This document shows, in pieces, positions 5,065-18,902 of a stretch of 21,757 bases of DNA (its first letter is position 1; every line of letters begins with the position of its first letter). This stretch comes from a virus. The notes beneath the pieces were generated by a model that ran no database searches, was not told where the DNA came from, and saw nothing but the letters and a program-made list of their open reading frames with translations. Location: positions 1 to 21,757 of the IMG/VR virus record IMGVR_UViG_3300007540_004321. One strand, given 5' to 3'. The position numbers were made by a program, and so were the translations under genes.

Positions 5065-5478
5065 TCAGTCAAGAATGGTGTTCTGTAGAGTGATCGGCAG
5101 GCGTGTTGTCGCCGTGGTTGATCCGTTGACCGTGTATTTCACCTGGAATTCACACGCGGCGATTGATTCCGTTGGATTTGCAAGGAAGTAAGCCGATGCC
5201 GCTTCCGTGGTGAGATCGAGAGAGAAGGACGCATCCGGTGTCCCCCGGTTGATTGCGGCAGTCGAAGAGGCGACGTAAGCGCCCCCGTAATCCCCCTGAA
5301 TCTTGACCCCTGCCAGCCATGAATCAGCGGGCGGAATCGGCTCAATCGAAGCGCCACGGCACAAAACGACAGAAATTTCGTAGACGCTGCCAAGCGTCAA
5401 TACCGGCTCCATCCAAGGCGGGGAGGTAGATCCGGGCTTTCTAACCCAATCGTTTGCGTTCAGATCGAAGTAAAGCAC
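5065..5478 (-). CDS. Probable tail appendage protein (137 aa), GTG start
   Basis: A 137-aa beta-rich protein with no recognised family. The frame opens at a GTG (5478) and no ATG occurs until residue 23, so GTG is the likely start. It is the first minus-strand gene to the left of the inverted 5577-5891 gene. The conserved 33-bp motif ends two bases before the GTG. In that motif TAAGG lies 7 nt upstream of the start, which would suit a Shine-Dalgarno site; if TAAGGT is instead a -10 box, the mRNA would be almost leaderless. Followed two bases later by the 116-aa gene and then the fibre, it probably belongs to the tail tip or fibre complex. Confidence 0.65.
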   Translation of the reverse strand: MLYFDLNANDWVRKPGSTSPPWMEPVLTLGSVYEISVVLCRGASIEPIPPADSWLAGVKIQGDYGGAYVASSTAAINRGTPDASFSLDLTTEAASAYFLANPTESIAACEFQVKYTVNGSTTATTRLPITLQNTILD

Positions 5479-5479
5479 A

Positions 5480-5512
5480 GGGATACCTTAGTAAACCACT
5501 CAAGATTGTCAA
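5480..5512 (-). promoter_or_regulatory. Conserved 33-bp motif, copy 1: candidate late promoter
   Basis: On the minus strand this reads TTGACA, then a variable stretch, then TTTACTAAGGT and TCCC. It matches 27 of 33 positions with the copy at 17854-17886. A -35-like TTGACA and a -10-like TAAGGT are 16 bases apart. It lies between the inverted secreted-protein gene and the minus-strand gene starting at 5478, exactly where minus-strand transcription would have to restart. The TAAGG part could instead be a ribosome-binding site for the GTG start. Confidence 0.55.
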
Positions 5513-5576
5513 GAATCATTTAGGGTGGAATTTCACGCTTGCCTGATTGGGGTGATCGGTGGTATTTGTCCTGATT

Positions 5577-5891
5577 ATGAAAACGATATTTGCCGCATTC
5601 CTGCTGTCCGTCCTGCCCGCTGCATCCGCCGAGAAATACCTGATTACCCAGGTTGTTGGGATGGGGAAAGGCACGCGCACAGTGAAGGTGATTGCCCGGG
5701 CGCCCGCATCCACGCATCTGACGGTTGAAACCTATACGACAACCACTGATGATAAGCCCAAGAAAAGGACGATTCCAGCAGGCCAGACGGTCACTTTCGA
5801 GTATAGCGCCCGAACCGATTACAGGGTGCGCCTGATGCACGGCGAACGGGTGATCGCGGAGGAAAGTTCCCGCAGCAAGCAGGGGCTTTAG
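5577..5891 (+). CDS. Small secreted protein on the opposite strand (104 aa)
   Basis: One of only two convincing plus-strand genes. The start is ATG 5577, because it opens a clean signal peptide: MKT, a hydrophobic core IFAAFLLSVLPA, and a cleavage motif ASA at residues 16-18. The mature part of about 86 residues is beta-rich (VKVIARAPASTHLTVETY, QTVTFEYSA, YRVRLMHGERVIAEE) and looks like a small periplasmic or secreted beta-sandwich. No family is recognised. Its stop overlaps the stop of the convergent minus gene (5888-5890). An inverted, self-contained secreted protein in a late operon is the usual form of a moron, an accessory gene such as one for superinfection exclusion, but that role is only an inference. 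Confidence 0.7.
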   Translation: MKTIFAAFLLSVLPAASAEKYLITQVVGMGKGTRTVKVIARAPASTHLTVETYTTTTDDKPKKRTIPAGQTVTFEYSARTDYRVRLMHGERVIAEESSRSKQGL

Positions 5892-6526
5892 GGTGTCCCC
5901 TCGTATGTATAGCTGCCACCAACAGGCCAGATGTCATCCTTCACAAACTGTTCCTCAACAGTGGCAATATCATCTGTGAGTGAAACCTCCGCAAGAACCA
6001 TGGCGAAGTTTCTCCCATCGTCCTGGGGGTCATAGGTGTCCGGTGCGGTGGTCGAAAACACAACCGTCGGAGCGCCAGAAAAGACTTCCCGCTCGCTGAT
6101 TAGCTGAATGCTACCGGGTAGCGTATCATCTGCCACGATCACAAGCCCGATGTCAGAAAGCGCGTAAACATATCCATCGCCCGTCACCGTAATCCCCTCT
6201 TCCCCTGCGTAGGAAAGGAAGAACCCCACAATGGAAATCGGGTCATTCAGATTACCTGTCCCGTTTGTCCGGTGGGTAGCCATACGCCCAGCCGATACAT
6301 TTATGGTGTTGTCCCCATTGCTCAACACTTTCCATGGGTGTCCAGGAATCCCCCTTCTTCTCCTTATGGCTGAGACCGTAGTCCCCCCAGGGGTCTGCGT
6401 GACCCGATACCCGATACCGGGCTGGATCTGGTTGGATTTCTGCCCCCCGCTGACAAGGTTCAACCGGGATGCGGAAAGCTGCTCTAACGCGGGCTTCCCC
6501 GCCTCAAATTTTGGGAATTCGTTCAT
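5888..6526 (-). CDS. Probable tail-tip structural protein (212 aa)
   Basis: The chosen start is the ATG at 6526, which forms ATGA with the stop of the preceding gene; an in-frame extension to 6553 is less likely. The 212-aa protein starts MNEFPKFEAGKPALEQLSASRLN, an opening often seen in phage tail-appendage proteins, and continues with a Gly/Thr-rich beta region. No enzymatic motif is visible. It lies directly downstream of the 239-aa tail gene and is the last minus-strand gene before the inverted secreted-protein gene, whose stop it overlaps. A virion structural role at the tail tip is inferred from position. Confidence 0.65.
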   Translation of the reverse strand: MNEFPKFEAGKPALEQLSASRLNLVSGGQKSNQIQPGIGYRVTQTPGGTTVSAIRRRRGIPGHPWKVLSNGDNTINVSAGRMATHRTNGTGNLNDPISIVGFFLSYAGEEGITVTGDGYVYALSDIGLVIVADDTLPGSIQLISEREVFSGAPTVVFSTTAPDTYDPQDDGRNFAMVLAEVSLTDDIATVEEQFVKDDIWPVGGSYTYEGTP

Positions 6527-7242
6527 GCCGCTTCGTAAAGGTCTGGATCCCACCCGCCCGGGCCACTAAGTTGGTAATCTTCCATAATCGTCACAACCCC
6601 GGCTTGTTTCGTCCATGACACGCCGACGCAAAGGTAATTCTGTCCGGATGGCGGGGTCGGAGCTGGCTCCCCTGGAGTTGCGATTTTCCCCACCTGATTC
6701 ATTAGCGCAGCTCCTGGGATATCCGGTGAAGCGTATGTCTTTTTATAGATGCCACCCGGCCTCAGGAATGACTCGATACCCCTTAGCTTCTTATCGTATA
6801 AGGTTCTCGCCGCTCCGGTGAGTGTGGATGGCGGGGGTTGTGCGTTTTGCAATGCTAGCTCAATAACCGCTAGATCCGATGGGGAAACAGGGGGATTATC
6901 AATCGGAACGTAGAATTTCGGATGGGTTTCAATCGGGGATTCCGTTGTTGTCCTTGCGAAATCGTGCTGTGCCAGCTCCTCCGGGTTGGATGCGAGAACC
7001 CCCTTGTAAATTGTGGTGATGCGGACAATCCCGCCCAGCTCCTGATCCAAGTCCGATTCGTAGCACTTTAACTCAGGAATGAACGGATGGGCTGAGAGAT
7101 AGGCGGGGATCACCACAAACGCAGATTCACTTGTGCATTTATAGGTAAGTGATGCCGTCGCTGATCCGTCCGGGTTTAGGTGAAGCGGGCGCTCCGCCTG
7201 ATAGATCGCCCCGGTTACGTTGCCGATTTTGATGGTTGCCAT
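6523..7242 (-). CDS. Probable distal tail or tail-tip protein (239 aa)
   Basis: A 239-aa protein, the first gene after the tape measure, where lambda-like phages place tail-tip genes. It begins MATIKIGNVTG with a beta-rich N-terminal region (to about residue 110), has a proline-rich linker (PPVSPSD, then QPPPSTLTG), and ends with a Gly/Pro-rich region containing PTPPSGQNY and YQLSGPGGWDP. No NlpC/P60, gpL, gpI or gpJ signature is visible. Distal tail function is inferred from gene order only. It starts four bases after the tape-measure stop and overlaps the next gene by ATGA. Confidence 0.6.
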   Translation of the reverse strand: MATIKIGNVTGAIYQAERPLHLNPDGSATASLTYKCTSESAFVVIPAYLSAHPFIPELKCYESDLDQELGGIVRITTIYKGVLASNPEELAQHDFARTTTESPIETHPKFYVPIDNPPVSPSDLAVIELALQNAQPPPSTLTGAARTLYDKKLRGIESFLRPGGIYKKTYASPDIPGAALMNQVGKIATPGEPAPTPPSGQNYLCVGVSWTKQAGVVTIMEDYQLSGPGGWDPDLYEAA

Positions 7243-7246
7243 GGTA

Positions 7247-8731
7247 TTATCTTGGGAGTAGTGCGTGGCGCGTTGGGTTCTTCTTTGATTCGCTGTGCAT
7301 CGCCTTAAGCGTTTCTGCTGTCTGCTTGGTAGCCATCGCGGTTTGCATGGCGGAACGCTCCTGAAGGCTCATTCCGGCGCGTAGGAAGCCACCACCGCCG
7401 CCAACCTTGGCGAGACTATCCGCGATCACCTTGGAGGATGACCCGGAGAAGGAAGTCAGCACGGATTTTGCGCCGTCCTCGTCACCCTTTCGCTTGTCGC
7501 GCGACGCTTCCTGCATTTCGGTTCCGGCCTTAAATCCTTTCTCGATCAACTCCTGCAAACGCTTTCCGCTTTCGGTAGTGTCGAAGACGTTTCCCTTCTG
7601 GAAGGTGTTATCCTCGCTTGATTGGAAAAGCCCCTTGGCGAATTGCCCGAATCCCTCGCCGCTGCGGTCGGCCAGGGCTTGCCCAGATCCTCGCACATTG
7701 TTGATATAGTCCTCGGAAATCAACCCCTTGTTACCCTCCATCATTTCACCGAATGTTTCACGGTTGCTGCCGCCGATTCCAAGGAGCTCGGATGCGCCTG
7801 GGATTGCCTCGATTGCGGATTGAATCGCGTATTGAACGCCCGATGCCATGGCTGCCACAATGTAATTGACTGCCTCCAGCATCTTCGCAGAAAACTGGGC
7901 GGCGATCCCAAGGAATCCGTCAGTGATGCGGGAAAAGGTATCCTCGGAAAACAGGAAGTCCCATGCCTTGCTAAGTGCTTCCATGGAAACAAGAAACGCT
8001 TTTCCAATCAATGGCCCGATGATCCCAGCCACGTAGTTCATGCCGCCAACAAGCCAGTTGACCCCATCCTGAAACGCGAGGGTCAAGCCAAGGCGCAACA
8101 CCTCCATCATGTCGCCATTCTTGAAGATGCCAGTGAGTATCGTGGCGGCCTTTCCTATCGCCCTGCCGAAGTCCTCACCGACCCCGGCAAGGTCGATTGC
8201 GTTCAGGTAGTCCAGCGCGGTCTGGAGCGGCAAAACGAATTGCTCCGTTGCGGTCAGGAAGAAGGTTTTCACCTTTGCACCGATGGCTTCCATCGTATTC
8301 CAGACGGATTGCAGCTTTTCGGCGGAACGGGTCAAAACCCCGGCTTGTGCGCCGTAGTCCGCCGCCGATGATTTGAGCGCCTTCGCGTAGTTATCGGCAC
8401 CTCCGAAAAGTTCGGACACGTTCCGCCCCTCCTTGATGAAATCCCCAATATGCCCCCGCGCCTCCTCAGCGCCCATTCCTGCTTTTTCCAGAGCTTTCTG
8501 GGTGAGAAGCAAGCCGCCCGGATCGAATCCGCCCATGGCACGGGAGGCGCTTCGCATCTCCTTCCCGAAGTTGATCGCCTCCTTGACCCCATCCTTCAGG
8601 AAATCCCCGATCTTGTAGGCGGTGAATCCGGCTGCGAACGTCACCATGAGGTTCTTCGCTGTCTTTAATGCCTGATCAAATCCTGAAATGTTCAGCTCAA
8701 GATAGCCTACTGCCTTTGCATTGGTTGCCAT
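7247..8731 (-). CDS. Tail tape measure protein (494 aa)
   Basis: A 494-aa, alanine-rich, mainly helical protein. It opens ATNAKAVGYLELNISGFDQALKT, the usual N-terminus of tape measures (a short strand, then an amphipathic helix), followed by hydrophobic segments at about 28-45 and in the middle (around AGIIGPLIGKAFLV and AAQFSAKMLEAVNYIVAAM). Such segments are thought to insert in the host membrane during DNA ejection. The C-terminal part is polar with Gly runs (VGGGGGFLRAG). Tape length sets tail length; 494 residues is short for this family, implying a short siphovirus tail. It lies two genes after the G/GT chaperone, which coats the tape during tail assembly. Confidence 0.85.
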   Translation of the reverse strand: MATNAKAVGYLELNISGFDQALKTAKNLMVTFAAGFTAYKIGDFLKDGVKEAINFGKEMRSASRAMGGFDPGGLLLTQKALEKAGMGAEEARGHIGDFIKEGRNVSELFGGADNYAKALKSSAADYGAQAGVLTRSAEKLQSVWNTMEAIGAKVKTFFLTATEQFVLPLQTALDYLNAIDLAGVGEDFGRAIGKAATILTGIFKNGDMMEVLRLGLTLAFQDGVNWLVGGMNYVAGIIGPLIGKAFLVSMEALSKAWDFLFSEDTFSRITDGFLGIAAQFSAKMLEAVNYIVAAMASGVQYAIQSAIEAIPGASELLGIGGSNRETFGEMMEGNKGLISEDYINNVRGSGQALADRSGEGFGQFAKGLFQSSEDNTFQKGNVFDTTESGKRLQELIEKGFKAGTEMQEASRDKRKGDEDGAKSVLTSFSGSSSKVIADSLAKVGGGGGFLRAGMSLQERSAMQTAMATKQTAETLKAMHSESKKNPTRHALLPR

Positions 8732-8736
8732 TGGTT

Positions 8737-9183
8737 TTAGAATTTATTGGTTAATGAATCCGCAAGCTTGTTCAGTCTCGATTTGAAGCGTCCGCCTGTC
8801 GCCTTCTCCGCCTTGTCGGAAACCTTCTTGATCTGATCGACCTTTTCCGATTCCGCTGATTTGTTCGTGATCCAGATTCGGATTTTGAATTTCTCGCTTG
8901 TGATATTGGAAATGAACCATCCCCGCGCAAACGTGCCACGGGCGCGAATACGGCGGGCGAGTTCCTTTCCGGGTGAGATTCCGGGCTTACGCTTGATCCG
9001 CCCCTTGAGCCGCTTCGCTGTGGCCGTGATCGTCTCTGGAGTCGGCGCGATGATCCGTCCCTGTTTCTTCGCTTCATTCAGGAAGTCCTTACCTTGAACG
9101 TCGGCCATGGTCTTCCCTTTGGATGCCGCCTGATCGCGCATCTTGTCGAAAGCCCTATTTAGTCCTGACGGGTCAAATCTCAT
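8737..9183 (-). CDS. Hypothetical basic protein between chaperone and tape measure (148 aa)
   Basis: A 148-aa basic protein rich in Lys and Arg, with segments KRLKGRIKRKPG and LARRIRARG and a Lys/Ser-rich helical C-terminus. The chosen start is the ATG at 9183; the codon before it is TTG and could also serve. It overlaps the end of the frameshifted chaperone frame by 11 bases, so it is translated together with the tail assembly genes. No family is recognised. Positions between the T frame and the tape measure are usually tail genes, so a minor tail or assembly role is likely. Confidence 0.6.
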   Translation of the reverse strand: MRFDPSGLNRAFDKMRDQAASKGKTMADVQGKDFLNEAKKQGRIIAPTPETITATAKRLKGRIKRKPGISPGKELARRIRARGTFARGWFISNITSEKFKIRIWITNKSAESEKVDQIKKVSDKAEKATGGRFKSRLNKLADSLTNKF

Positions 9184-9726
9184 CAATCATCCTTATGATA
9201 TCCTCGTCTGCGTCGGCGGGTTCGGTGTTGACGTTTTCCAAGCGCATGAAGGCGTGGCAGTAAGCGTTTCCGCGTGCCATCGGCAGTTCCCAAAGTATGA
9301 ATTGTTCCGTCCATCCTGTGAATTTTGCAATCAGCGCTACATACGCCGCCTCGTCGGGCGGGTCTATTCGTTTCCCAGCGGGTCTTCCATCATGTTGGGA
9401 TCGGATACCGGCTTGGCTTTATTAGCCTCACTGTGTTCCATGATCTCCTGAATGACGGTCTGCGCCTCCTGTCCGAAGTCGGCAATCTCCAGCTTCTCCT
9501 TTTCGATCCAACGGGATACGGTTTCATCAAACCATTCCGGCTTGCGGAGGGCTTTTGAGATTTCCGATTGGGGGCAGATTAGCCCGTAAATCAGGGCGGC
9601 CAGATCCCAAGGGGTGATCCTTGTGAAATCGACCAGTTTTGATAGGTGGAACTTGCGGGCGCGTGAGAGCGGTTTAATCTCAATACCCTTGAATTCCCAT
9701 GTCTTGTGCAGTGTGTTGTCGTTCAT
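9173..9726 (-). CDS. Tail assembly chaperone G-T fusion by programmed -1 frameshift (184 aa)
   Basis: The long form of the tail chaperone. Ribosomes read the 120-codon G frame to codon 119, slip back one base on GGGAAAC (9376-9370), and continue for 65 codons to a TGA at 9173-9175. The extension has no start of its own, yet is open and protein-like: KFTGWTEQFILWELPMARG, then a cysteine/histidine pair and an acidic end. This matches the T part of lambda-type G/GT pairs, in which G and GT bind the tape measure and recruit tail-tube subunits in a fixed ratio, then leave before the tail is complete. The gene position before the tape measure agrees. Confidence 0.88.
9346..9376 (-). promoter_or_regulatory. 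Programmed -1 frameshift signal: GGGAAAC plus hairpin
   Basis: In the G frame the codons read CTG GGA AAC GAA TAG, so GGGAAAC (9376-9370) fits the X XXY YYZ slippery pattern and lies one sense codon before the zero-frame stop. Eight nucleotides after it, CCGCC (9361-9357) can pair with GGCGG (9350-9346) around a 6-base loop. This spacing and GC-rich stem are typical of a stimulatory hairpin. Confidence 0.85.
9364..9726 (-). CDS. Tail assembly chaperone, short form (gpG-like, 120 aa)
   Basis: The unshifted product of 120 aa. It starts MNDNTLHKTWEFKGIEIKPLS, a beta-rich opening, followed by helices with the segment TRITPWDLAALIYGLIC and an acidic C-terminal part ending EDPLGNE just past the slippery site. 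Size, position between major tail protein and tape measure, and the frameshift all agree with lambda gpG and HK97 gp13-type chaperones. In those phages the short form far outnumbers the long one. The ATG at 9726 lies four bases after the stop of the 134-aa gene. Confidence 0.85.
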   Translation of the reverse strand: MNDNTLHKTWEFKGIEIKPLSRARKFHLSKLVDFTRITPWDLAALIYGLICPQSEISKALRKPEWFDETVSRWIEKEKLEIADFGQEAQTVIQEIMEHSEANKAKPVSDPNMMEDPLGNE

Positions 9727-9729
9727 AAT

Positions 9730-10134
9730 TTATAGCATCTTCTTGAGAGTTTCCTTATCCTTCTTGCTGATACGGGGGCCAATGATTACCGTCCGATCCC
9801 CTTTCTCGATCACGCGCATCTCGGTTGCGCCGTGGTGGAAAAGGTGCAGGTTTGCCGCCCTGTTCTCCGCGAATCCCTTCATCCAATAAAGCGGGTGTTC
9901 GTGATCGAGCGTGTATTCCTCCCAATGACGCGCCTTGGAATAAGCGCCCATGAGTGTGTGCGCCCTGTCGTTTATCTCGTCATCGGTTACGTCATACCAC
10001 CACTTGCCGGATGATACGTCCTTCCCGTTATATTCCCGGATTTCACGGGTCACGGGGTCAAACGAACGCTTAGGAATTCCGTATGCGTCGAGGATCGAGG
10101 CAAGGGTAATATCAACTACAAAGATTGTTCTCAT
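9730..10134 (-). CDS. Hypothetical tail-module protein (134 aa)
   Basis: A 134-aa protein between the major tail protein and the chaperone. It is rich in aromatic residues and histidines (GKWWYDVTDDEI, ARHWEEYTLDHEHPLYWMKG, NLHLFHHGATEMRVI) and ends in a Lys-rich helix. The amino acid pattern is unlike typical tail proteins, and no family is recognised. Lambda has no gene in this place, so it may be an accessory tail or assembly protein. The histidine/aspartate cluster could bind metal, but no named motif is seen. Confidence 0.6.
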   Translation of the reverse strand: MRTIFVVDITLASILDAYGIPKRSFDPVTREIREYNGKDVSSGKWWYDVTDDEINDRAHTLMGAYSKARHWEEYTLDHEHPLYWMKGFAENRAANLHLFHHGATEMRVIEKGDRTVIIGPRISKKDKETLKKML

Positions 10135-10149
10135 ATTTTAAGGGTGGTA

Positions 10150-10512
10150 TTACGCGAACTTGTATTGGGTCGCGTTGGTTGTGATCTTGCGGAATTCGGT
10201 GTTGCCGCCTGCAAGTTCCACGTCGTCGCAATACACGCCGCCTGTGGTGACTCCGTTGGTGACTCCCTTGTTGGCGATGGTGAGAGCAACGCCAGGGGCT
10301 GCTGCTGCGATTCCGGTTGCTCCTGCTATCACGCCAGAAACGGACAGCTTGCGGAGCGGATTATAGAATGCGACAAGTGCAAAATCCCCTTGCTCGTCGC
10401 GGACTTCGTTCTTTTCGCGGGATACTTTGTCGGATGTGGTCTGGACAAGGATTCCGGTTTCTGCGGTGAGTCCCCAAGTTGCTCCTGTGGTTCCAATAGT
10501 GATTACGGCCAT
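10150..10512 (-). CDS. Major tail tube protein (gpV-like, 120 aa)
   Basis: A 120-aa beta-rich protein, MAVITIGTTGATWGLTAETGI, rich in Gly, Ala and Thr. Its place after the tail-completion gene and before the chaperone is that of the lambda major tail gene V. It has no charged low-complexity regions and fits a tube subunit of the common tail-tube fold, though it is shorter than most (lambda gpV has 246 aa). Directly upstream lies CGAACCAACCAAA, five bases before ATGGCC, a leader shared with the decoration protein; no Shine-Dalgarno is present. High expression is expected. Confidence 0.7.
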   Translation of the reverse strand: MAVITIGTTGATWGLTAETGILVQTTSDKVSREKNEVRDEQGDFALVAFYNPLRKLSVSGVIAGATGIAAAAPGVALTIANKGVTNGVTTGGVYCDDVELAGGNTEFRKITTNATQYKFA

Positions 10513-10517
10513 GATGT

Positions 10518-10530
10518 TTGGTTGGTTCGG
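10518..10530 (-). promoter_or_regulatory. CGAACCAACCAAA leader before the major tail gene
   Basis: The minus strand reads CGAACCAACCAAA, five bases before ATGGCC. The same 13 bases precede the decoration gene with nearly the same spacing. No Shine-Dalgarno lies between. The identity at two highly expressed genes suggests a functional element for translation or mRNA binding. Confidence 0.5.
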
Positions 10531-10539
10531 TGGTGTTGT

Positions 10540-10980
10540 TTAGGTGTTGTCGATTGCCATGCAATAGACCCAGTATTTCATATCGTAAGCGTAAGACTTG
10601 GTTTCCGGCTCATTTGTCATCTCCGCGCTTGTCGGGTGCCATCCGTGGCAGTGGAAGTCATCAAGCCCGGAGAGTTTCGCGGCGGTGGAGTCGTAGGCGA
10701 AATTGTTGATTGCATCCAAAACGGCCTGGCGATCTTCCGGCGACGTCTCCTTGGTGTGGCTACGGAAAAGGATCTCGCCCGCAACCTTGAAAATTCCGCT
10801 TCCCGGCGTGATGTCCTCTTCCGCCGAAACGCATTTTACAACGATGTAGGGCATCTGCTGTTTCGTCTCGCTTTCGTCCGCGATATAAACGGGGATTGCG
10901 CCGACCTCATCTGCGATGCCTTCAAGATGATTCTGGAGGACTTCCTGAATGGCTAGGTTTGCTGCGTGTAGGATTTGCAT
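10540..10980 (-). CDS. Tail terminator or completion protein (gpU-like, 146 aa)
   Basis: The chosen start is the ATG at 10980, two bases after the upstream stop; a TTG two codons earlier is less likely. The 146-aa protein has an N-terminal helix (MQILHAANLAIQEVLQNHL), strands YIVVKCVSAEED and EILFRSHTK, then a helix EDRQAVLDAINNFA. This alpha/beta order is common in small tail-terminator proteins that cap the tube and meet the head connector. Gene order (just before the major tail gene) matches lambda U. The assignment rests on order and fold pattern. Confidence 0.65.
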   Translation of the reverse strand: MQILHAANLAIQEVLQNHLEGIADEVGAIPVYIADESETKQQMPYIVVKCVSAEEDITPGSGIFKVAGEILFRSHTKETSPEDRQAVLDAINNFAYDSTAAKLSGLDDFHCHGWHPTSAEMTNEPETKSYAYDMKYWVYCMAIDNT

Positions 10981-10982
10981 GG

Positions 10983-11318
10983 TCAATCCCCCCTAACGGT
11001 TGCGATCAGTTCATTCCCATCCGCCGATTTGATGGACGATAGAACGATCTTGCTTTCCCATGACCCTGGAGTTGTTCCGGGCTGGGCTTTCTGGCGGACG
11101 GCGAGCTTGCTGCCGATCTCGATTGACCCCTTTTCGGTTACAAGGAAATGGACGCGCTGAACCGATGATTCTTCCCCGCCTCCATACGCACCATCCTCTT
11201 CGTTCAGGAGGTCGTCAATCAGCACGGAAAACGTCTTTGCTCCGATCTTGCACTCAGCGGGCATGTCGCGGGTGAATAGCTGGGCAAGGTCTGCCGCCAT
11301 GTAGGATTGCATACTCAC
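10983..11318 (-). CDS. Head-tail joining protein (gpFII-like, 111 aa)
   Basis: A 111-aa protein with a helical N-terminus and then a beta barrel-like part: FSVLIDDLLNEEDGAYGGGEESSVQRVHFLVTEKG, IGSKLAVRQ and an end ...ELIATVRGD. This resembles the lambda gpFII family, which joins the filled head to the tail and carries a flexible acidic/Gly loop in the same place. The frame opens with GTG at 11318, which overlaps the glycosyltransferase stop as GTGA; an ATG two codons later (11312) is the alternative. It is followed by the gpU-like gene after a two-base gap. Confidence 0.7.
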   Translation of the reverse strand: MSMQSYMAADLAQLFTRDMPAECKIGAKTFSVLIDDLLNEEDGAYGGGEESSVQRVHFLVTEKGSIEIGSKLAVRQKAQPGTTPGSWESKIVLSSIKSADGNELIATVRGD

Positions 11319-13081
11319 GCCACCACCTCCAATTCCCTTACTGGTTCGCTCAGGAAGCTATTCGCATCCGCTTTCGGGTTGCGCTGGGCAAAAAGTTCCG
11401 CGCCCGTCCGGTAGTTGTCAGGGTGGTTTTCCCATTCATACGTCGCATCCATCGGCACGCCGGGATTAAACATTGGGTGGTCGTGGTAAATTACGAACTC
11501 CGGTGCGTCGATGTATTCGCAGAATCCTTTCTGCCCGTCCCTGATCGCACGGAAACTGTTTTCAGTGTCAGGAAATACAGTGGTGTATCCACGATGGAAA
11601 AACCCGTTCTCGCCCGGATCGCGGCTTGCCTTAACCTTCATGTAGGCGGCGGTCAGGATCGAGTTGACCGAGATACGGTCTGCGCGGTGTCCGTCCCCAC
11701 ATGCAACAAAGACGGATTTCTTCGGGTCAGGGATCAGCTTTGCAAGCTCAACGTCCCAGCCGTCCGGCGGGTAGCAATCATCCTGCGCCTGGATGATGAT
11801 TTGCCCCGTTGCCGCCCCTGCTGCGGTGTCGTAGTTGATCGCCGCGCCTTTCTTGTCGGTGACAGTGTGCTTGAATCCCGATAGGTATTTGACGCTCGGT
11901 TCATCGAAAGAATGCAGTCCGAAAATGTATTCAACGTTCTCTGGATAACGCGCGCGCGAAAGCCACATTTCACGGATCTGCAAAGCTTTTTCCGGCCTCC
12001 CTAGGGTGGCATGGATGAGGGAAAATGTCGGATGGCGGTCATCCTGATTCAGTTGGAACTCCAGATCGGCCTCTGCGGTGTCTCCAGTCAAACGCAGGCA
12101 TTGGCGGTGCAGCTCCTGTGCCTTCCATCCATACCATTCGTTGTTCTGACTCCAATAGCTCCGGCTAGGCTTGGGAGTGGATTGGATGTGGCATGATAGC
12201 GTCAGCGCCGTATCGTGATCCTTGTCGATCAGCGAGTAACTGCAAAGCAACGCCAAAGCCTCGCGCCTGTCAGGCATGATTGCGAAGGCTTCGGCGGCGA
12301 GCTTGCGGGAGTCTTGCCCCGGTGTCTGTGCGAGATTCAGGAGGATCTCGTAACGCTCGATCTTTTCAAGTCCGGGACACGCGAGCGCGGCGGTTGCGTA
12401 TCGGAGAAACTGGCGCTCGTCCCCGGTCTGGAAATACTCTTGCTGAAGGTAGAAGAAATTCCGCCAGGTGTCTCGGATCTCGTTTTTCAGGATAGCCACA
12501 TTCCGGTTGTGCCCGCCCGTCTTTTCAGCCAGTGGTTCATGCAGGAAGATCGCATCCTTAACAATGCGGTATGTCGCATCCTGCGGGAATGCAAGCTGCT
12601 CATGGATCGCGTATTTCCAATGGCTGCCGATGGATGCTTTCACCATCCGCTCGCGCATGACGATCTGTTTATCACCGCGCACATGGTAGGGCATGATGAA
12701 TACATCGTGGCTTGCGGATTCGGCGGCGGCTCGGATGGCCTCAGCGGCTCCGGGTGCGAGCTGGTCGTCAGCGTCCGCCCATAGGAGGTAATCGGTGACG
12801 TATCCCTGTGCTAAGTTCCACGCAGCTTGCCTTGCGTCTCCGAAATGGTCGGTATGCTTGAAGTCCTGATTCGCGTATCGAGTGGATGTTGAAACGAAGT
12901 CTTTTCCGAGAGCTTCGCAGGTCATTCTTGCAATCTCAATAGTATCATCCGGTGGCCCATACTTGGGGTGTCCAGATGCTTGAACCATCACGATTCGATC
13001 AACGGAGGGCGCGAACGAACGGATAAACCGCTCAATGATCGCTTCCTCGTTTCCAACGATGCAGGCTAGGGTAATTTTCAT
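11315..13081 (-). CDS. Large glycosyltransferase family 2-like protein with two GT-like domains
   Basis: A 588-aa protein inserted between the capsid and connector genes. Residues 1-180 form a GT-A domain: MKITLACIVGNEEAIIERFI, then the nucleotide-sugar and metal site WADADDQ with D103/D105. About 200-380 is helical and resembles TPR-like repeats. About 385-588 looks like a second, divergent GT-like domain with IIIQAQDDCYPPDGWD (D434/D435) and FVIYHDHP. Family 2 enzymes move a sugar from a nucleotide sugar to an acceptor. The acceptor here is unknown; a place in the head operon suggests that virion proteins, cell-surface glycans or phage DNA could be targets. A strong hairpin separates it from the capsid gene. 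Its ATG has no clear Shine-Dalgarno. Confidence 0.8.
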   Translation of the reverse strand: MKITLACIVGNEEAIIERFIRSFAPSVDRIVMVQASGHPKYGPPDDTIEIARMTCEALGKDFVSTSTRYANQDFKHTDHFGDARQAAWNLAQGYVTDYLLWADADDQLAPGAAEAIRAAAESASHDVFIMPYHVRGDKQIVMRERMVKASIGSHWKYAIHEQLAFPQDATYRIVKDAIFLHEPLAEKTGGHNRNVAILKNEIRDTWRNFFYLQQEYFQTGDERQFLRYATAALACPGLEKIERYEILLNLAQTPGQDSRKLAAEAFAIMPDRREALALLCSYSLIDKDHDTALTLSCHIQSTPKPSRSYWSQNNEWYGWKAQELHRQCLRLTGDTAEADLEFQLNQDDRHPTFSLIHATLGRPEKALQIREMWLSRARYPENVEYIFGLHSFDEPSVKYLSGFKHTVTDKKGAAINYDTAAGAATGQIIIQAQDDCYPPDGWDVELAKLIPDPKKSVFVACGDGHRADRISVNSILTAAYMKVKASRDPGENGFFHRGYTTVFPDTENSFRAIRDGQKGFCEYIDAPEFVIYHDHPMFNPGVPMDATYEWENHPDNYRTGAELFAQRNPKADANSFLSEPVRELEVVA

Positions 13082-13099
13082 ATTTTTGGGGAAAGGGTA

Positions 13100-13123
13100 G
13101 GGACGCGCCCGAAGACGCGCCCC
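13100..13123 (-). promoter_or_regulatory. 10-bp RNA hairpin with a cUUCGg tetraloop
   Basis: The minus-strand RNA folds a 10-bp stem between 13123-13114 and 13109-13100 (eight Watson-Crick pairs and two G-U pairs) closed by a C(UUCG)G tetraloop, one of the most stable loop types. It begins nine bases after the capsid stop and ends 18 bases before the glycosyltransferase ATG. No U-tract follows (UACCCUUUCCCC), so it is more likely an mRNA stabiliser or partial attenuator than a full terminator. Confidence 0.65.
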
Positions 13124-13132
13124 AGGTTGCTA

Positions 13133-14098
13133 TTATGCGTAGCTGGTTGTGATGAGTTCGCACGCGGTGGTGTCGATCACCTTCTCTGCGGTGTGCTGAC
13201 GCACGCGCAGGATGTCGGAACGGCGCTCGTCGGAGCGGTAGGTTTCCGGGGTAAACAGGCCAGTGGTGTCCTTGCTCCATTGGATGGTGCGTCCGACTCC
13301 GCCTGCTGTGTATTCGCCGCCTGCGATGTAGGCCACAGCGAAGTAGGTATCGCTCCAGATGAACGAGCCGGAATAGGTCTGTCCTTTTCCGTTTGCGTTC
13401 TTCGGAGCGCGACCGACGAGGATGTTATCCACGCCGAGAGCTTGGGCAATGTCCGCATCCGATGGGATGAGGTATTGGCCAGCGCCCTTTGGAACAACGC
13501 CAAACACCTGGTTCTGAAGCAGTGTGGAACGCTTGATGCGCTCATGCACGTTTGCAGACATAATCACCGTGTTGGGGATATGTCCGTTCCTCAGTAGGCG
13601 GAGCTTTGCGAGCGATACGTCCGCAGGGACGTTGATCGTGGCAAGGTTGGCCTCGGTGTATGCGACAGACGCGGCAGTAGCCGTGAAGGTCGATGCGTTA
13701 AACAGTGCGGCAGCGATACGGGCTTCGTAGGAGATGCGGAGCGAACGCTCAAGGAGCTGCGCTTCCGTCACTTCCAGTCCGAAGAAACGCTCGGTTTCGG
13801 CAGCGTAGGCATCATCAATGACGCTTTCGAGGCCGTATTCCAATGCGTCAAACGTATCGGTATCATACTTGCGGTTGACGCGCTGGTATCCGTCGCCGTT
13901 GGCTCGGGGTTTCGCATCGCCATTGAGCAATTCGGCATTGCCGAGATTTGCCTTCATGTAGATGCCGCGTTTGACATCCTCACCCTTGACAGGGAAAACC
14001 TTGTCGCCGATGAAGAGTTCATTGCCCGCCATAGGGGCTTGCATCATCAGAGCGTAAATGTCGCTCCGTGGTGTTGCTTGTGAGTTAGTGTAAGCCAT
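13133..14098 (-). CDS. Major capsid protein (321 aa, HK97-fold expected)
   Basis: A 321-aa protein with the composition and length of lambda gpE-type capsid subunits (lambda gpE has 341 aa). It begins MAYTNSQATPRSDIYALMMQ, has a loop-like region rich in Gly/Asn/Arg (about 60-80), a long helix region with EVTEAQLLERSLRISYEARIAAAL, and a domain with VIMSANVHERIKRSTLLQNQVFG and ends with beta strands and ...ELITTSYA. It follows the decoration gene, as in lambda D-E. The leader holds AACCAACAACCAAC instead of a Shine-Dalgarno. A strong hairpin follows its stop. It is likely the most abundant product. Confidence 0.85.
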   Translation of the reverse strand: MAYTNSQATPRSDIYALMMQAPMAGNELFIGDKVFPVKGEDVKRGIYMKANLGNAELLNGDAKPRANGDGYQRVNRKYDTDTFDALEYGLESVIDDAYAAETERFFGLEVTEAQLLERSLRISYEARIAAALFNASTFTATAASVAYTEANLATINVPADVSLAKLRLLRNGHIPNTVIMSANVHERIKRSTLLQNQVFGVVPKGAGQYLIPSDADIAQALGVDNILVGRAPKNANGKGQTYSGSFIWSDTYFAVAYIAGGEYTAGGVGRTIQWSKDTTGLFTPETYRSDERRSDILRVRQHTAEKVIDTTACELITTSYA

Positions 14099-14110
14099 GG
14101 TCGTAGTTCA

Positions 14111-14136
14111 GTTGGTTGTTGGTTTCTCGATTGGTT
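14111..14136 (-). promoter_or_regulatory. AACCAAC-type leader before the capsid gene
   Basis: The untranslated leader of the capsid gene reads, on the minus strand, AACCAA (14136-14131) and AAACCAACAACCAAC (14125-14111), ending 12 bases before the ATG. There is no purine-rich Shine-Dalgarno. Related leaders precede the decoration, major tail and nested scaffold starts. A translation-enhancing or RNA-binding role is an inference from the repetition. Confidence 0.45.
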
Positions 14137-14485
14137 AGACTTGCACGAACTCGGTCACGATCCCGTTGGATGCCACCGCCGATTCAAGGGCGACTAGGCG
14201 CGGGGTAGTAACCACACCGACGAATCCGCCCGTGATAATTCCGTATGATGTTCCTGCTGTAATAGCCGAACCTGATGCAGCTCCCATGAAGCTGCCGGGG
14301 GCGCTCCAGAGTTTGACGCTGCCGTAGTTTGCATCGGCTACGTCCTCTTGGGTGACGCCGATGCCCTTGGTGTTATCCGCTGCTGCGGTGATGGTTCCGT
14401 CCGCCTGAACGGTCACGATCCGGTATGCGGAGATCGCGCCCGAAGCGAGGAAGGACTTGAATCCGTTTTCGTTTTGACTGGCCAT
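14135..14485 (-). CDS. Capsid decoration protein (gpD-like / DUF2190-like, 116 aa)
   Basis: A 116-aa Gly/Ala/Thr-rich beta protein starting MASQNENGFKSFLASGAISAYRIVTVQADGTITAAADN and containing TKGIGVTQEDVADANYGSVKLW. This pattern matches small head-decoration or DUF2190-like proteins that bind the capsid surface after expansion and stabilise it. It sits directly before the major capsid gene, as in lambda D-E. The leader carries two AACCAACC-like units and ends CGAACCAACCAAAATT-ATG; no Shine-Dalgarno is visible. Confidence 0.75.
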   Translation of the reverse strand: MASQNENGFKSFLASGAISAYRIVTVQADGTITAAADNTKGIGVTQEDVADANYGSVKLWSAPGSFMGAASGSAITAGTSYGIITGGFVGVVTTPRLVALESAVASNGIVTEFVQV

Positions 14486-14491
14486 AATTTT

Positions 14492-14509
14492 GGTTGGTTC
14501 GTTGGTTGG
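14492..14509 (-). promoter_or_regulatory. Repeated CCAACC leader before the decoration gene
   Basis: On the minus strand the leader reads CCAACCAACGAACCAACC, seven bases before the ATG. It contains a tandem repeat and shares CGAACCAACCAAA with the leader of the major tail gene (10518-10530). The opposite strand, GGTTGGTTCGTTGGTTGG, has four GG pairs and could form a two-layer G-quadruplex. The function is unproven. Confidence 0.45.
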
Positions 14510-14515
14510 TGATTA

Positions 14516-14977
14516 TTATGCGGTTTTCACATTGCGGGATGCTTCCCACGCCTTGTATGCGTCGGGATGCTTGGCCTTGTTGGTTAGGATGTGACCCTCA
14601 GCCTTGATGCGGTCGCCGCTGAATTCCTTCTCGGCAATTTCAGCAACGTGTTCGCTGTAGGTCTTAATCTTGGCGGGGGCGGATGCGGGGACTCCTGGCT
14701 TGCCGAGCTTGGTAAGTCCGAGTTTTGCGGACATGGCCTTGATGGCGATTTCCGCGCCGCGCTGTGCAGCAAGCTCGATCTTCTTGTCGTCCTCGTCATT
14801 GTCGGAGCTGAGTTCGGATTTCTCCTCTTCCTCGCTGCCGTCTTCCAATTCGGATTTTTCTTCGTCCTTGGCCTCTTCCTCGGGTGGCGACTCAAGAGCC
14901 GTCAAGCGGGTGCTAAATTCCTCGAATTTGGACATGAGATCCGCGAGGGTTGGTTCTGTTTGTTCTTCGTCTTCCAT
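14516..14977 (-). CDS. Probable nested scaffold from an internal start (153 aa)
   Basis: Inside the protease gene, M172 (ATG at 14977) begins MEDEEQTEPTLADLMSKFEEF, a natural N-terminus for the acidic scaffold. Directly before it the sequence reads AACCAACATAACCAAT-ATG, the same AACCAA-type leader found before the decoration, major tail and capsid genes but not expected inside a coding region. In lambda the scaffold Nu3 is made from such an internal start within C. The product would hold the whole scaffold part without the protease. This is an inference from position and leader. Confidence 0.5.
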   Translation of the reverse strand: MEDEEQTEPTLADLMSKFEEFSTRLTALESPPEEEAKDEEKSELEDGSEEEEKSELSSDNDEDDKKIELAAQRGAEIAIKAMSAKLGLTKLGKPGVPASAPAKIKTYSEHVAEIAEKEFSGDRIKAEGHILTNKAKHPDAYKAWEASRNVKTA

Positions 14978-15490
14978 ATTGGTTATGTTGGTTTCTGTTT
15001 CGGTTTCTTCCTCAGCCTTCGCGGAGAAGAGAGAGCTATTTGCTGCTGGGTCATCCACCAGTGCGGCGGCAAGGACTCCATCGCAGCGGGACATGCAAAC
15101 GGTTCCACGGGGCTTATCTTCGCCCGTGAACTCCATGCTGATCCCCATGTGTTCCGGGTTCTGATCCGCTATCTCAAGGATGCGCCCCCGGTTGCTTTCG
15201 GATTCATAAATATGCACATCGGCAAGCACCTTGTCGGCTTGCAGCGCGAAGTTATCCGCCCAGCCGATCACCTCGAAAACGCCGCTGCCGTGGTTGGCCT
15301 TCAGCTTGATCTTGCCGAGCTTTTTGCACTCCTTGAAAAGCTGCTCAAGTGTCACCTCATCAATGATTACCTGACGGCCTTTCTTGTCGAAATGACCCTT
15401 CGCATCGCCCATTTTCATCAGCGAGACGGAACGGATGATGCCGTTGTCCTTGTCGATCCGTGGGGATTCCAGTGCGGTGTAGAGCTTCAT
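14516..15490 (-). CDS. Prohead protease fused to scaffold (324 aa)
   Basis: The N-terminal part (about 1-160) has the prohead protease pattern: KLKANHGSGVFEVIGWADNF with likely catalytic H67, EHMGISMEF with likely nucleophile S118, and the closing phrase ALVDDPAANSSLF typical of this family. From about 160 to 245 it is extremely acidic (Glu/Asp/Ser runs) and 245-324 is helical and basic, as expected of a scaffold that directs capsid assembly and is then cut up. This matches lambda gpC, whose scaffold part is also made separately as Nu3. It overlaps the portal stop by ATGA. Antisense frames opposite the acidic region are compositional artefacts. Confidence 0.85.
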   Translation of the reverse strand: MKLYTALESPRIDKDNGIIRSVSLMKMGDAKGHFDKKGRQVIIDEVTLEQLFKECKKLGKIKLKANHGSGVFEVIGWADNFALQADKVLADVHIYESESNRGRILEIADQNPEHMGISMEFTGEDKPRGTVCMSRCDGVLAAALVDDPAANSSLFSAKAEEETETETNITNMEDEEQTEPTLADLMSKFEEFSTRLTALESPPEEEAKDEEKSELEDGSEEEEKSELSSDNDEDDKKIELAAQRGAEIAIKAMSAKLGLTKLGKPGVPASAPAKIKTYSEHVAEIAEKEFSGDRIKAEGHILTNKAKHPDAYKAWEASRNVKTA

Positions 15491-17490
15491 GGGTAGTATT
15501 GTTTCTGGATGTCTGCCGGAAGTTTGCTTTTCTGGAACTTGCCGCTCTCCACGATGTCGTAAGCGATGGCGTATGCCTCCTGCTCGGGTTTGCCGGATTG
15601 CAATAGCGCCTGGGTGAGTGCGTGGCGGTCATCGCGCTTCCTTGCCTTAACTGCCTTTGCTTCCGGGGTTGGCTTGTCGGATGATGGCTTCTTGTCATCA
15701 CGCCGCTCCCTGCGTCCCTTGAGTTGGTCTAGTGCCACCTTGTGTTCCGTGAGGTAGGAGTTTGCCTTGTCGAGTTCCACGCGCAGGCGTTGGAGTGCTT
15801 CCGGGTTGCTTCCGTCCGCAAGATCCGTGATGGATTCCTTGATATCGGAAACCCAATCCTCTCCGAACTCCACCGCGCTTGTCTCCTTGTCGATGCGGGC
15901 ATTGATTGAGGAATCGGCTTCGCGGTAGTTCTTGCGGGCGGAAAACTCCTTGGGTGCTTCGTCGGTGGTTGTGGATTCCGTGACACTCTCGCTGGTGGAG
16001 AGCGGTTTCGATGGTCCACTGCCGAAGATGTCCTCGACGGGGATTCCTGATTTCTCGGAAGAGACTTTCTTGATCTGCGCCCAACGTGTCATGGATGCGG
16101 CCACATCCTCCGGGTCTTGGCTGTTCTCGATCCAATGCTGCATCGGGTCAAGCAGACCGTGTTCGTAAAGGTTGACCGCTGCGGATGCTTCCTTGCCGAG
16201 ATCCGGCTGCGGGTGCCTGCGGTATCCCCATCGCCCCTTGTGGATCACGCGCAGGGTGGAGGCGGGGAAAATGCCCTTGGCGATTGCGTCGTAAAGGAAG
16301 GCGTTCTTGATGCGGTTCGCGTGTGGGGTGAGAACCTTCTGGAATCGTTCAAAGGTCGCCTTCGCCATCTCACTTTCAAGGCGGCTGGACACGCCACCAA
16401 GTGCCGATGCGTCAAGGGCGAAAGAGTAGGGGAGATCGTAGGACATCGCCACGAACTTAAGAAGCTGGGTCATCAACCATTGCTCCTCACTCGATGGGGA
16501 AGTGGTGGATGGGAACTTGATATCCGTTCCAGCCGCAAGGTGGTTGATCTGCCCAAACTCGATGTCCTGCTGAAGTGCGGATTGCCCGCCCGGCGTGAGG
16601 TTGGTCGAGTAGGCATCGAAAGCCCCGCTCCCCGTCATCGCTCCGTTGGAGTTGGTGAAGACGGTTATGGCGCTGGCGAGCTTTGCCTTGCCCTTCACGA
16701 AATCAATCATCTCGTAAAGGTCGCGCAGGTTCTGGATGGCCGTAGCAAGGATGGAAACGCCCCGGTATTGGTCAATCCGCATCGGGTCGGTCAGATGGAC
16801 GAAATCCGCAGCAGGAACATCAATAGGGTTGTCGTAGGTGTTCGTGGTCATCGACCGATGAAACACACGGAAGGAATCAACCTGCCCATGCTCCCCGATG
16901 TTCAGTCCGGAAACGTAGTCATTGGAAACGACGTTCTGATAGATGCCGCCGATCCTGTCCGGCTCGATGGCCTGGATCTTGAGAGGGAGCTGTAATGCGT
17001 CTTCCTCGCTGATTCCCTCGTATGAGCCCGGCCTTTGGAAAGCCCAGCCGTAATCCCCGCCCCGGTTGCAGCCCATCACGCCGAACTCAAGCATCTGGAA
17101 GAATCCGTAGCGCCCGGTGATATCGCAGCTAGGGAAAACCTCTTCCTCAAGGTATTCCTCAATTTCCTTGTCGAGCTTCTGATCCCCGGTCTGCGCGTGG
17201 TAACTCTGCGGGGTGACATACATCGCAAACTTGCGATTGAGCATCTTCGCAGGAGCAAAGTTCCTCTCCATATCCTCAGCCTCCCGCATGAGTTGCAGGC
17301 GGTCGCGCTGCACATCGAAGGAGTTTGGCGACATGTTCTGCGGTGCCTGCCCGCGCTTATGGTCGGACTTCGCGCCGTCATAACGGAATTCGTGAATCAC
17401 GCGCTTTGCCGCAAGCCGTTTCAGCCCACGCTCCGGTGAGATTGCGCAAAGCATGTTATCGAAAACCCCGGCCTTGAAATCAGGTGTCAT
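15487..17490 (-). CDS. Portal protein (lambda gpB-like, 667 aa)
   Basis: A 667-aa protein of the lambda gpB portal type. It opens with a basic segment SPERGLKRLAAKRVIHEFRYDGA (about 18-40), and carries FVHLTDPMRIDQYRGVSILATAIQNL (about 230-255), a conserved stretch near the portal stem in this family. The 12-subunit ring is the DNA gate of the head. Residues from about 500 are a hydrophilic extension with a lysine/arginine-rich part (GRRERRDDKK, KARKRDD) and a final helix ending in KQYYP; lambda gpB is 533 aa, so the C-terminal tail is longer than usual. It overlaps the gpW-like stop as ATGA and the protease start as ATGA. Confidence 0.88.
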   Translation of the reverse strand: MTPDFKAGVFDNMLCAISPERGLKRLAAKRVIHEFRYDGAKSDHKRGQAPQNMSPNSFDVQRDRLQLMREAEDMERNFAPAKMLNRKFAMYVTPQSYHAQTGDQKLDKEIEEYLEEEVFPSCDITGRYGFFQMLEFGVMGCNRGGDYGWAFQRPGSYEGISEEDALQLPLKIQAIEPDRIGGIYQNVVSNDYVSGLNIGEHGQVDSFRVFHRSMTTNTYDNPIDVPAADFVHLTDPMRIDQYRGVSILATAIQNLRDLYEMIDFVKGKAKLASAITVFTNSNGAMTGSGAFDAYSTNLTPGGQSALQQDIEFGQINHLAAGTDIKFPSTTSPSSEEQWLMTQLLKFVAMSYDLPYSFALDASALGGVSSRLESEMAKATFERFQKVLTPHANRIKNAFLYDAIAKGIFPASTLRVIHKGRWGYRRHPQPDLGKEASAAVNLYEHGLLDPMQHWIENSQDPEDVAASMTRWAQIKKVSSEKSGIPVEDIFGSGPSKPLSTSESVTESTTTDEAPKEFSARKNYREADSSINARIDKETSAVEFGEDWVSDIKESITDLADGSNPEALQRLRVELDKANSYLTEHKVALDQLKGRRERRDDKKPSSDKPTPEAKAVKARKRDDRHALTQALLQSGKPEQEAYAIAYDIVESGKFQKSKLPADIQKQYYP

Positions 17491-17747
17491 CGTGATCCCC
17501 TCCCGACGCTAGGGTTGAAGTTGGCGCGGGTATTGTGTGAGCGTGTCCCGGTGAGAAGCCCAAGCGCATAGACGGCCTCCTGCAATGTTGCGGATGCGCT
17601 TTCCAACGAAGGGAAGGAAAAGGATCGTCCGGCGATTGTGTAGGAAATGCCGCGCACGGTTCCTGCGATGATCGCAGCCTTGCACGCATCCCGGATCTCG
17701 ATCAGGTCGGCGGACTCAAGTCCCACAAGAGTTTGCTTGATAGCCAT
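17487..17747 (-). CDS. Head-tail joining protein (gpW-like, 86 aa)
   Basis: An 86-aa protein directly before the portal, as with lambda W. It has two helices (LESADLIEIRDACKAAII and SASATLQEAVYALGLL) flanking a beta hairpin ISYTIAGRSFSFPS, the exact topology of gpW, which enters the portal after packaging and helps retain DNA. The C-terminal tail of about 20 residues (THNTRANF-like, Arg-rich) extends beyond lambda gpW's 68 residues. Its ATG overlaps the stop of the 33-aa gene as TGATG and its stop overlaps the portal start. Confidence 0.85.
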   Translation of the reverse strand: MAIKQTLVGLESADLIEIRDACKAAIIAGTVRGISYTIAGRSFSFPSLESASATLQEAVYALGLLTGTRSHNTRANFNPSVGRGSR

Positions 17748-17848
17748 CAGATGCGCCCTCCCTTAACGCAAGGATCACCCCCCGCCACCGCTTCAAACGG
17801 CGGCAGGGGCTTATCTTCCAATCCTTCTTTCAGTATGTTTCGCAACAT
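17747..17848 (-). CDS. Tiny gene coupled to gpW (33 aa)
   Basis: A 34-codon frame opens at ATG 17848 and stops with TGA overlapping the gpW ATG (TGATG), an arrangement that favours translational coupling. The conserved 33-bp motif ends five bases upstream, so this would be the first codon of the transcript. The product starts with a helix MLRNILKEGLEDK, then a Pro-rich link PLPPFEAV and GGDPCVKGG. No family is recognised. It may be a leader peptide setting the level of gpW and portal, or a small structural protein. A GC-rich hairpin (GCCGCCG/CGGCGGC-like arms around 17779-17804) lies within it. Confidence 0.55.
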   Translation of the reverse strand: MLRNILKEGLEDKPLPPFEAVAGGDPCVKGGRI

Positions 17849-17853
17849 TCCTG

Positions 17854-17886
17854 GGGAAACCTTAGTAAATCACCCAACAAAGTCAA
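17854..17886 (-). promoter_or_regulatory. Conserved 33-bp motif, copy 2: candidate late promoter
   Basis: The minus strand reads TTGACT, then TTTACTAAGGT and TCCC, identical at 27 of 33 positions with the copy at 5480-5512. It lies between the inverted 324-aa gene and the next minus-strand gene, starting five bases upstream of the 33-aa gene. TTGACT and TAAGGT are 16 bases apart. It is a candidate promoter that restarts head-gene transcription. Confidence 0.55.
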
Positions 17887-17927
17887 CATTTAATTTACAA
17901 GCCCTTACTTTTAAGGTAAGAGGGGAC

Positions 17928-18902
17928 ATGTCCCAGACCGCATTCACGACCGTTTCCACGAATAGGCTTGCTGCGCAGCCTGCATCATCCTCCCTGATTT
18001 ACGTTAGATCGACCAGCGGAGCGGATACTGGAACGCTTACCATTTACGGCGATGTATCCGCAACGCCGGACACGGACGCAATCGCGCTTGCTGGTCAGGT
18101 TGAGGTTTCATCCGTGGAGATTTTCGACTCGATTAGCCAAGCGATCCTTAGCACGGCACAAGCCGGAACGGTTACGGCATACGCACCCGGAACGGCAGCG
18201 AGCGGGGATATTCGCACGGACGTAAACCCGACCGATGGCGACACCCTTGCGCTTGGCGGGATCACCTATCGCTTCAAATCCACGATGGCTGCGATCAATG
18301 ATGTTCAGCTCGGCGCATCCGCAACAGATACGACACTGGCGCTCAAGAAAGCCATCAACCTGGACGGCATCGCCGGAACCGATTACTTCACCGGAACGGC
18401 AGCAAACCCGATCTATTCCGCCACGGTTGCCACTACGGTTATCACCCTTACCGACCGCATCCCCTGCTTGCGGCAGGTCGCGCAGACCATCACGGAATCC
18501 GCATCAAACTTTGCCATTCGGACTCCAATCGGTGGCGTTGACGGCACGCTTCTTTTCACCTTTGCAGTCGGCGCAACCTCTGCTGCCGATGTCCTAACGT
18601 TCTCCACGGAAGATCACCTAACCGCAACCCTCCCGGCGCTCATGCTCGGAACGTCCAACCCCGTCAATACACAGGGGCGGCAGGCGATGCTCCGTCTTTG
18701 GTCTGACAACGCGATCAGCTACAAGGTGCAATCCAGCACGGATCAAACGAACTGGACGGATACAAGCGAGGGGACTGTTGCCCTTTCCGCATCAACACTC
18801 ACGAACGTAGTCCTTGCGGAGTTGCATGAGTTTGTCCGGTTTGTAGTCACCACCAACGCGAACACGGACGATACGATTCTGGATGCGCGGGTGATTTACT
18901 GA
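17928..18902 (+). CDS. Inverted virion-type structural protein (324 aa)
   Basis: The larger of the two plus-strand genes. The chosen start, ATG 17928, has AGAGGGG just upstream, the clearest Shine-Dalgarno in the window; a longer frame from 17733 or 17836 would cross the divergent control region. The protein is Thr/Ala-rich and beta-type. About 100-190 contains DGDTLALGGITYRFKSTM, VQLGASATDTTLALKKAIN and TDYFTGTAANP, a domain pattern common in phage fibre and tail proteins; the C-terminus (VQSSTDQTNWTDTSEGT to DARVIY) resembles a jelly-roll domain. A head fibre or other decorative virion protein is likely. Its 3' end overlaps the convergent 85-aa gene by seven bases. Confidence 0.75.
   Translation: MSQTAFTTVSTNRLAAQPASSSLIYVRSTSGADTGTLTIYGDVSATPDTDAIALAGQVEVSSVEIFDSISQAILSTAQAGTVTAYAPGTAASGDIRTDVNPTDGDTLALGGITYRFKSTMAAINDVQLGASATDTTLALKKAINLDGIAGTDYFTGTAANPIYSATVATTVITLTDRIPCLRQVAQTITESASNFAIRTPIGGVDGTLLFTFAVGATSAADVLTFSTEDHLTATLPALMLGTSNPVNTQGRQAMLRLWSDNAISYKVQSSTDQTNWTDTSEGTVALSASTLTNVVLAELHEFVRFVVTTNANTDDTILDARVIY

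Follow-up and report, generated by a model that had tools for sequence, protein, structure and literature searches.

The two 33-bp sequences facing the minus-strand structural genes of this virus are very probably sigma-70-type promoters, judged by the layout of the corresponding sites in its relatives. The similarity of the two sequences across the spacer appears best explained by a 25-bp palindrome (consensus AATCCTTAGTAAnTTACTAAGGATT), which covers the spacer and the -10. A preliminary description had proposed a phage promoter at which minus-strand transcription restarts after each inverted gene. The promoter gained strong support from the -35/-10 layout found in relatives, but its dependence on the inverted genes did not hold.

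The window, the whole 21,757-bp stretch analysed, is the IMG/VR virus record IMGVR_UViG_3300007540_004321. Its tail region is also encoded on the minus strand (Table 1). For comparison, 80 portal-family loci were collected from viral contigs by terminase and portal searches. The alignment of the portal against genome contigs gave no relative, only distant portal relatives were found in Verrucomicrobiia genomes, and the GenBank phages included neither a close DNA relative nor a close portal relative. A contig from another IMG dataset (L001) was identical in all genes compared; its position 1 is the same base as the right end of the window (21757), which is either a physical genome end or an assembly limit. 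A 588-aa glycosyltransferase gene similar to that of the window was located in the same place after the major head protein in L025.

Table 1. Coordinates of genes and predicted elements in the window
Feature	Position	Strand	Description
Endolysin	1270-1833	minus	
Tail-region protein	5065-5478	minus	137 aa; first gene behind motif copy 1
Motif copy 1, predicted tail-block promoter	5480-5512	minus	TTGACA 5512-5507, 16-bp spacer, TAAGGT 5490-5485, GTG 5478
Palindrome frame, copy 1	5483-5507	minus	18/25 to AATCCTTAGTAANTTACTAAGGATT; left arm 8/12, right arm 10/12
Candidate promoter of inverted gene 2	5539-5568	plus	TTGCCT-N18-TATTTG, 8 nt before ATG 5577
Inverted gene 2	5577-5891	plus	104 aa; signal-peptide-like N-terminus
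Glycosyltransferase	11315-13081	minus	588 aa; Pfam family 2 domain; inside the structural operon
Major head protein	13133-14098	minus	
Portal	15487-17490	minus	second gene behind copy 2
86-aa head gene	17487-17747	minus	behind copy 2, before the portal gene
Leader ORF	17747-17848	minus	33 codons, MLRNILKEGLEDKPLPPFEAVAGGDPCVKGGRI; stop overlaps the head-gene ATG (TGATG)
Motif copy 2, predicted head (portal) operon promoter	17854-17886	minus	TTGACT 17886-17881, 16-bp spacer, TAAGGT 17864-17859, ATG 17848
Palindrome frame, copy 2	17857-17881	minus	16/25; left arm 5/12, right arm 11/12; right half-site only
Predicted promoter of inverted gene 1	17894-17922	plus	TTTACA-N17-TAAGAG, 5 nt before ATG 17928
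Inverted gene 1	17928-18902	plus	324 aa; beta-sandwich, weak F5/8-type-C similarity
Terminase	19150-21054	minus	

Promoter-like layout at the head and tail gene blocks

A recount on the minus strand agreed with the described identity of the two copies, which lie 12 kb apart and match at 27 of 33 positions. Their reverse complements read TTGACAATCTTGAGTGGTTTACTAAGGTATCCC (copy 1) and TTGACTTTGTTGGGTGATTTACTAAGGTTTCCC (copy 2) and have an identical 11-bp block, TTTACTAAGGT. The other positional claims of the description were also borne out: a scan of the window detected no third copy, the runner-up place agreeing at only 16 of the 27 positions common to both; each copy points into a minus-strand gene (GTG 5478 and ATG 17848, respectively); and each occupies a divergent gap to the left of one plus-strand gene. 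The GTG start was backed by the L103/L132 homologue, which begins GTGCTTTACTTCGAC. The starts of the plus-strand genes were placed at 17928 (not 17733) and 5577 (not 5559) on the basis of relatives and the signal-peptide-like N-terminus. The repeat taken alone was moderately improbable: among 1500 Markov (dinucleotide) shuffles of the window sequence, 10 held two 33-bp stretches, in direct or inverted orientation, that agree at 27 positions or more. The motif was judged to be real because of its position and its conservation in relatives.

Both copies have a TTGACA-like -35 (TTGACA and TTGACT) and, at 16 bp, a -10 of the form TAnnnT (sought at 16-18 bp). This TAAGGT is a weak -10, sharing only 3 of its 6 positions with TATAAT, and a generic promoter scan of the window called neither copy. 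The start codon follows the -10 by 6 nt at copy 1 and by 10 nt at copy 2.

A rule assigned the first gene of the head operon in the relatives, and the resulting set was reduced to 33 non-redundant sequences. TTG[AC] was present at -40 to -35 of the start codon in 24 of the 33, compared with about one per position elsewhere. When TTG[ACT] was counted at -43 to -30, it was found at 25/33 head-operon starts, as against 0/32 for the portal, 3/21 for the major head protein and 5/12 for a tape-measure-like gene. The mean bipartite score at the head-operon starts was 5.64 versus 5.12 (sd 0.10) in shuffles. TA occurred 16 or 17 bp after the -35 in 21 of 28 relatives (5.3 expected), a count reached by none of 2000 shuffles, and TAnnnT at the same spacing in 10 of 28 (null 1.7). 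Just before the first start codon, L003, L004 and L040 carry TTTACAAAG..GGCGATTTACTAAGGTTTTG and L002 a more distant version, and L024-L027, L030 and L038 carry CTTGCAATCCTTAGTATTT[TG]AGTAATGATTCGC at the head-operon position, with one change in L026. The small tail-side set gave a similar picture, with TTGAC located 33-37 nt before most homologues of the 137-aa tail-region gene, with and without neighbours. The bipartite layout, its fixed distance from the start codon, its conservation and its independence from the inverted genes were thus shown computationally. An exact-pattern scan of viral contigs for TTTACTAAGGTWTCCC yielded mostly chance matches in coding DNA.

The TTGAC/TTGCC -35, 16-17 bp spacer and TA-initial -10 of the window's family resemble those of sigma-70-type promoters, and the sites lie at the start of head and tail blocks, as do sigma-70-type promoters of phage structural genes. 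The -10 of the window, TAAGGT, departs from the consensus TATAAT, and, unlike in usual sigma-70 promoters, the start codon lies only 6-10 nt past it, leaving the predicted mRNA nearly leaderless. From this layout we infer the sigma factor and the transcription starts: two promoters would start separate minus-strand units, the head operon at 17848 and the tail-gene block at 5478, with RNA beginning within a few bases of the start codon. The transcription units examined would mostly begin with near-leaderless sigma-70-like promoters of this kind.

It is very improbable that the whole 33 bp is instead the recognition site of a phage-encoded RNA polymerase or phage sigma factor. Such a site would suit the length of the conserved stretch and the TTTACTAAGGT block common to both copies, but the family keeps only TTG and the TA at 16-17 bp, as in sigma-70-type promoters. 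Inspection by eye of the ORF lists of two long records, one from a relative and one from a Mu-like phage, revealed no polymerase or sigma gene; the window itself is a fragment.

The preliminary description had also offered TAAGG as a ribosome-binding site, and TAAGG is complementary to the 3' end of 16S rRNA. At both copies and in most palindromes, the distance from TAAGG to the start codon (7-12 nt) is a workable one, and Shine-Dalgarno sequences are used by other genes of the family (portal, 22/32; inner head gene, 8/8). Nevertheless, this reading of the shared part is very unlikely, as it leaves unexplained the -35 hexamer TTGAC at its fixed distance, the TA at 16-17 bp and the left palindrome arm CCTTA. 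TAATGA replaces TAAGG in L024 and L025, and many relatives have the same promoter layout without TAAGG. TAAGG was retained only where the palindrome or a half-site is retained, and it lacks the conservation expected of a Shine-Dalgarno sequence.

Inverted genes and cassette exchange

The motif was not restricted to sites beside inverted genes when searched for in related phages, and the claim that it marks a restart after each inverted gene failed in both directions, as relatives keep the element without the gene and the gene without the motif. L003 and L004 have the motif at the head operon and lack inverted gene 1. In L118 and L119, the palindrome precedes the homologue of the gene at 5065-5478 and follows a same-strand gene, with no inverted gene, and in L025 one palindrome site lies between two same-strand genes. 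Eight relatives (L005, L022, L023, L028, L033, L034, L052 and L055) possess inverted gene 1 with other promoter sequences there. The association between motif and inverted genes in the portal family was weak (6/8 versus 8/25; Fisher p 0.047, kinship ignored). The sequences do not support the inverted genes as the cause of the motif.

The homology between L004 and L040 begins approximately 10 bp upstream of the -35 of the motif, indicating that a cassette reaching from terminase to promoter is exchanged. Upstream of each promoter there would thus be an exchange site, filled by an inverted gene, a same-strand gene or nothing. With both sites being such exchange points, each downstream operon would carry its own near-leaderless promoter, whatever lies upstream. 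Among the Mu-like phages, a reversed DNA-methylase-like gene lies between terminase and palindrome in L168, and nothing is present there in L178. On the minus strand of L045 (5277-5405), a truncated remnant of inverted gene 1 (MSNTAFST...) lies in opposite orientation beside an intact promoter. Cassette loss is possible in this locus, which was not used as a clean gene-less case because the first codons remain.

The description had further suggested that the motif is a cassette boundary. A promoter at the edge of an exchanged cassette agrees with this, whereas the promoter itself lies on the conserved side. The stricter reading, which takes the motif as one terminus of a mobile cassette containing the inverted gene (an insertion scar or a recombination site), draws on the inverted genes adjoining both copies, on the break in L004/L040 homology and on the few codons left beside the motif in L045. 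It is, however, extremely improbable: each cassette has a single copy and none at the opposite end, the motif occurs without an inverted gene in L003/L004, L118/L119 and L025, and relatives with the inverted gene have other sequences at the site.

Inverted gene 1 is kept, in its inverted orientation, by about 24 relatives, and its beta-sandwich domains, in a model with pLDDT 67, weakly resemble carbohydrate-binding modules. It has a predicted promoter of its own, of the same layout and opposite direction, with TTGA, TTGC or TTTA at -34 in 8 of 12 relatives, and would bring this promoter with it. The possible promoter of inverted gene 2 is a weaker candidate, and the libraries and loci searched contained no relative of this gene. 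Near inverted gene 1 in the window, no convincing terminator was detected. Morons are phage accessory genes with their own promoter. The inverted genes resemble them in that each is a single gene, placed within a structural operon and preceded by a promoter-like sequence of its own, but inverted gene 1, unlike morons, is so widespread that it is not a recent acquisition. The back-to-back promoters in one short gap also resemble bidirectional or divergent bacterial promoters (PMC12825309, PMC10268837), but differ from them in that the two directions in the window use separate -35 and -10 hexamers.

The palindrome as a candidate operator

A matrix scan revealed several sites as palindromes. The two arms form 7-11 complementary pairs out of 12 in L090, L046, L025, L118, L144/L145, L153, L177 and L147, and the window retains mainly the right half, with 6/12 pairs in copy 1 and 4/12 in copy 2, a poor palindrome. 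When all positions on both strands of the window were scored with a matrix built from nine palindrome sites, all outside the window, copy 1 ranked first (22.5) and copy 2 second (11.4), followed by a site at 9.7; the membership of copy 2 in the palindrome family appears marginal.

Collection scans detected the palindrome in Mu-like phages, immediately upstream of the portal gene (Pfam Portal_Mu, E 7.6e-65); these phages had been chosen by the palindrome pattern, whereas the position at the portal gene was not a criterion. The palindrome also lies between terminase-like and portal-like genes in L172 (called by sequence pattern, not by profile), before another structural gene in L199 and L204, and before the terminase small subunit (PHROG 309, E 3e-40) in the prophage of a Verrucomicrobiia bin. 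In L199, two tandem palindromes about 11 bp apart stand ahead of the structural gene (~3440-3510, minus strand). Many other matches in these scans are probably due to chance in AT-rich genomes, and the palindrome-promoter string gave only chance matches in GenBank phages. TTG preceded TAAGG by 16-17 bp in most palindrome sites of the collection scans, was lacking in L177, and was present as a -35-like element on both strands of the L046 palindrome.

The palindrome overlapping the promoter would most likely be the binding site of a dimeric regulator. The chance that it is an operator for such a phage-related putative regulator is even or slightly better. Chances appear evenly balanced that the motif is a worn promoter-operator module, TTGmCa-N16/17 with AATCCTTAGTAAnTTACTAAGGATT over spacer and -10, placed at head-gene starts of unrelated phages and answering to a putative regulator outside the host regulon. 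These phages would be the window's family, the Mu-like phages, the prophage of the Verrucomicrobiia bin and a third lineage, whose portal-like protein has 695-729 aa. The palindrome core was absent from 384 genomes of the suspected host class and 145 of the family, except for G027, the Verrucomicrobiia bin itself. It is thus phage-borne, and an operator of a host regulon was rejected. A packaging site was also rejected, as the window carries two sites and L025 three, all at promoter distance from start codons. A function as an RNA hairpin was not favoured, as the inferred RNA start lies downstream and L118 breaks the pairing. BLASTP and phmmer comparisons of the window's relatives with Mu-like phages found no shared regulator and no C-like gene.

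The C protein of Mu acts at promoters whose -10 and -35 both depart from consensus, where its site overlaps the -35 or lies upstream of it (PMC4461284). The C-activated Mu late promoters (Plys, PI, PP and Pmom) share one regulator site, as several promoters of the window's family would, and in the Mu-like phages found here the palindrome is located at the portal gene. Unlike C sites, the palindrome is downstream of a good -35, over the spacer and -10.

Head-operon leader and meaning of the predicted promoter map

The ORF opening at ATG 17848 runs into the 17747 head gene. The leader RNA (17748-17852, minus strand) folds into a 14-bp stem-loop and a tetraloop hairpin of 5 bp. Promoter and head gene are approximately 100-140 bp apart in the window and in seven relatives, eight loci in all. 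The shape, a short 5' hairpin with a strong stem-loop, was kept in most of the seven relatives with completely different sequences, and the fold z-scores of the eight loci ranged from -1.6 (L002, the least clear fold) to -6.8. In the loci read by eye, an ORF of 33-36 codons is open through the leader and mostly ends in TGATG on the head gene. No Rfam match was found in the window, and mRNA protection, coupling or antitermination are guesses at the role of the leader. A/C-rich leaders (e.g. AACCAACGAACCAACC) without a Shine-Dalgarno sequence were seen at the gene starts 14485, 14098 and 10512, and a Shine-Dalgarno sequence was present at the portal, the 86-aa head gene and the endolysin.

In place of transcription rescue after inverted genes, these results offer predicted transcription starts for the head and tail genes of an uncultured phage family, a map open to experimental test. 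Should the palindrome prove to be a shared operator, a common switch would serve the head genes of unrelated phages with one host group, and the position of the promoter would be predictable from sequence alone in phages without a cultured host.
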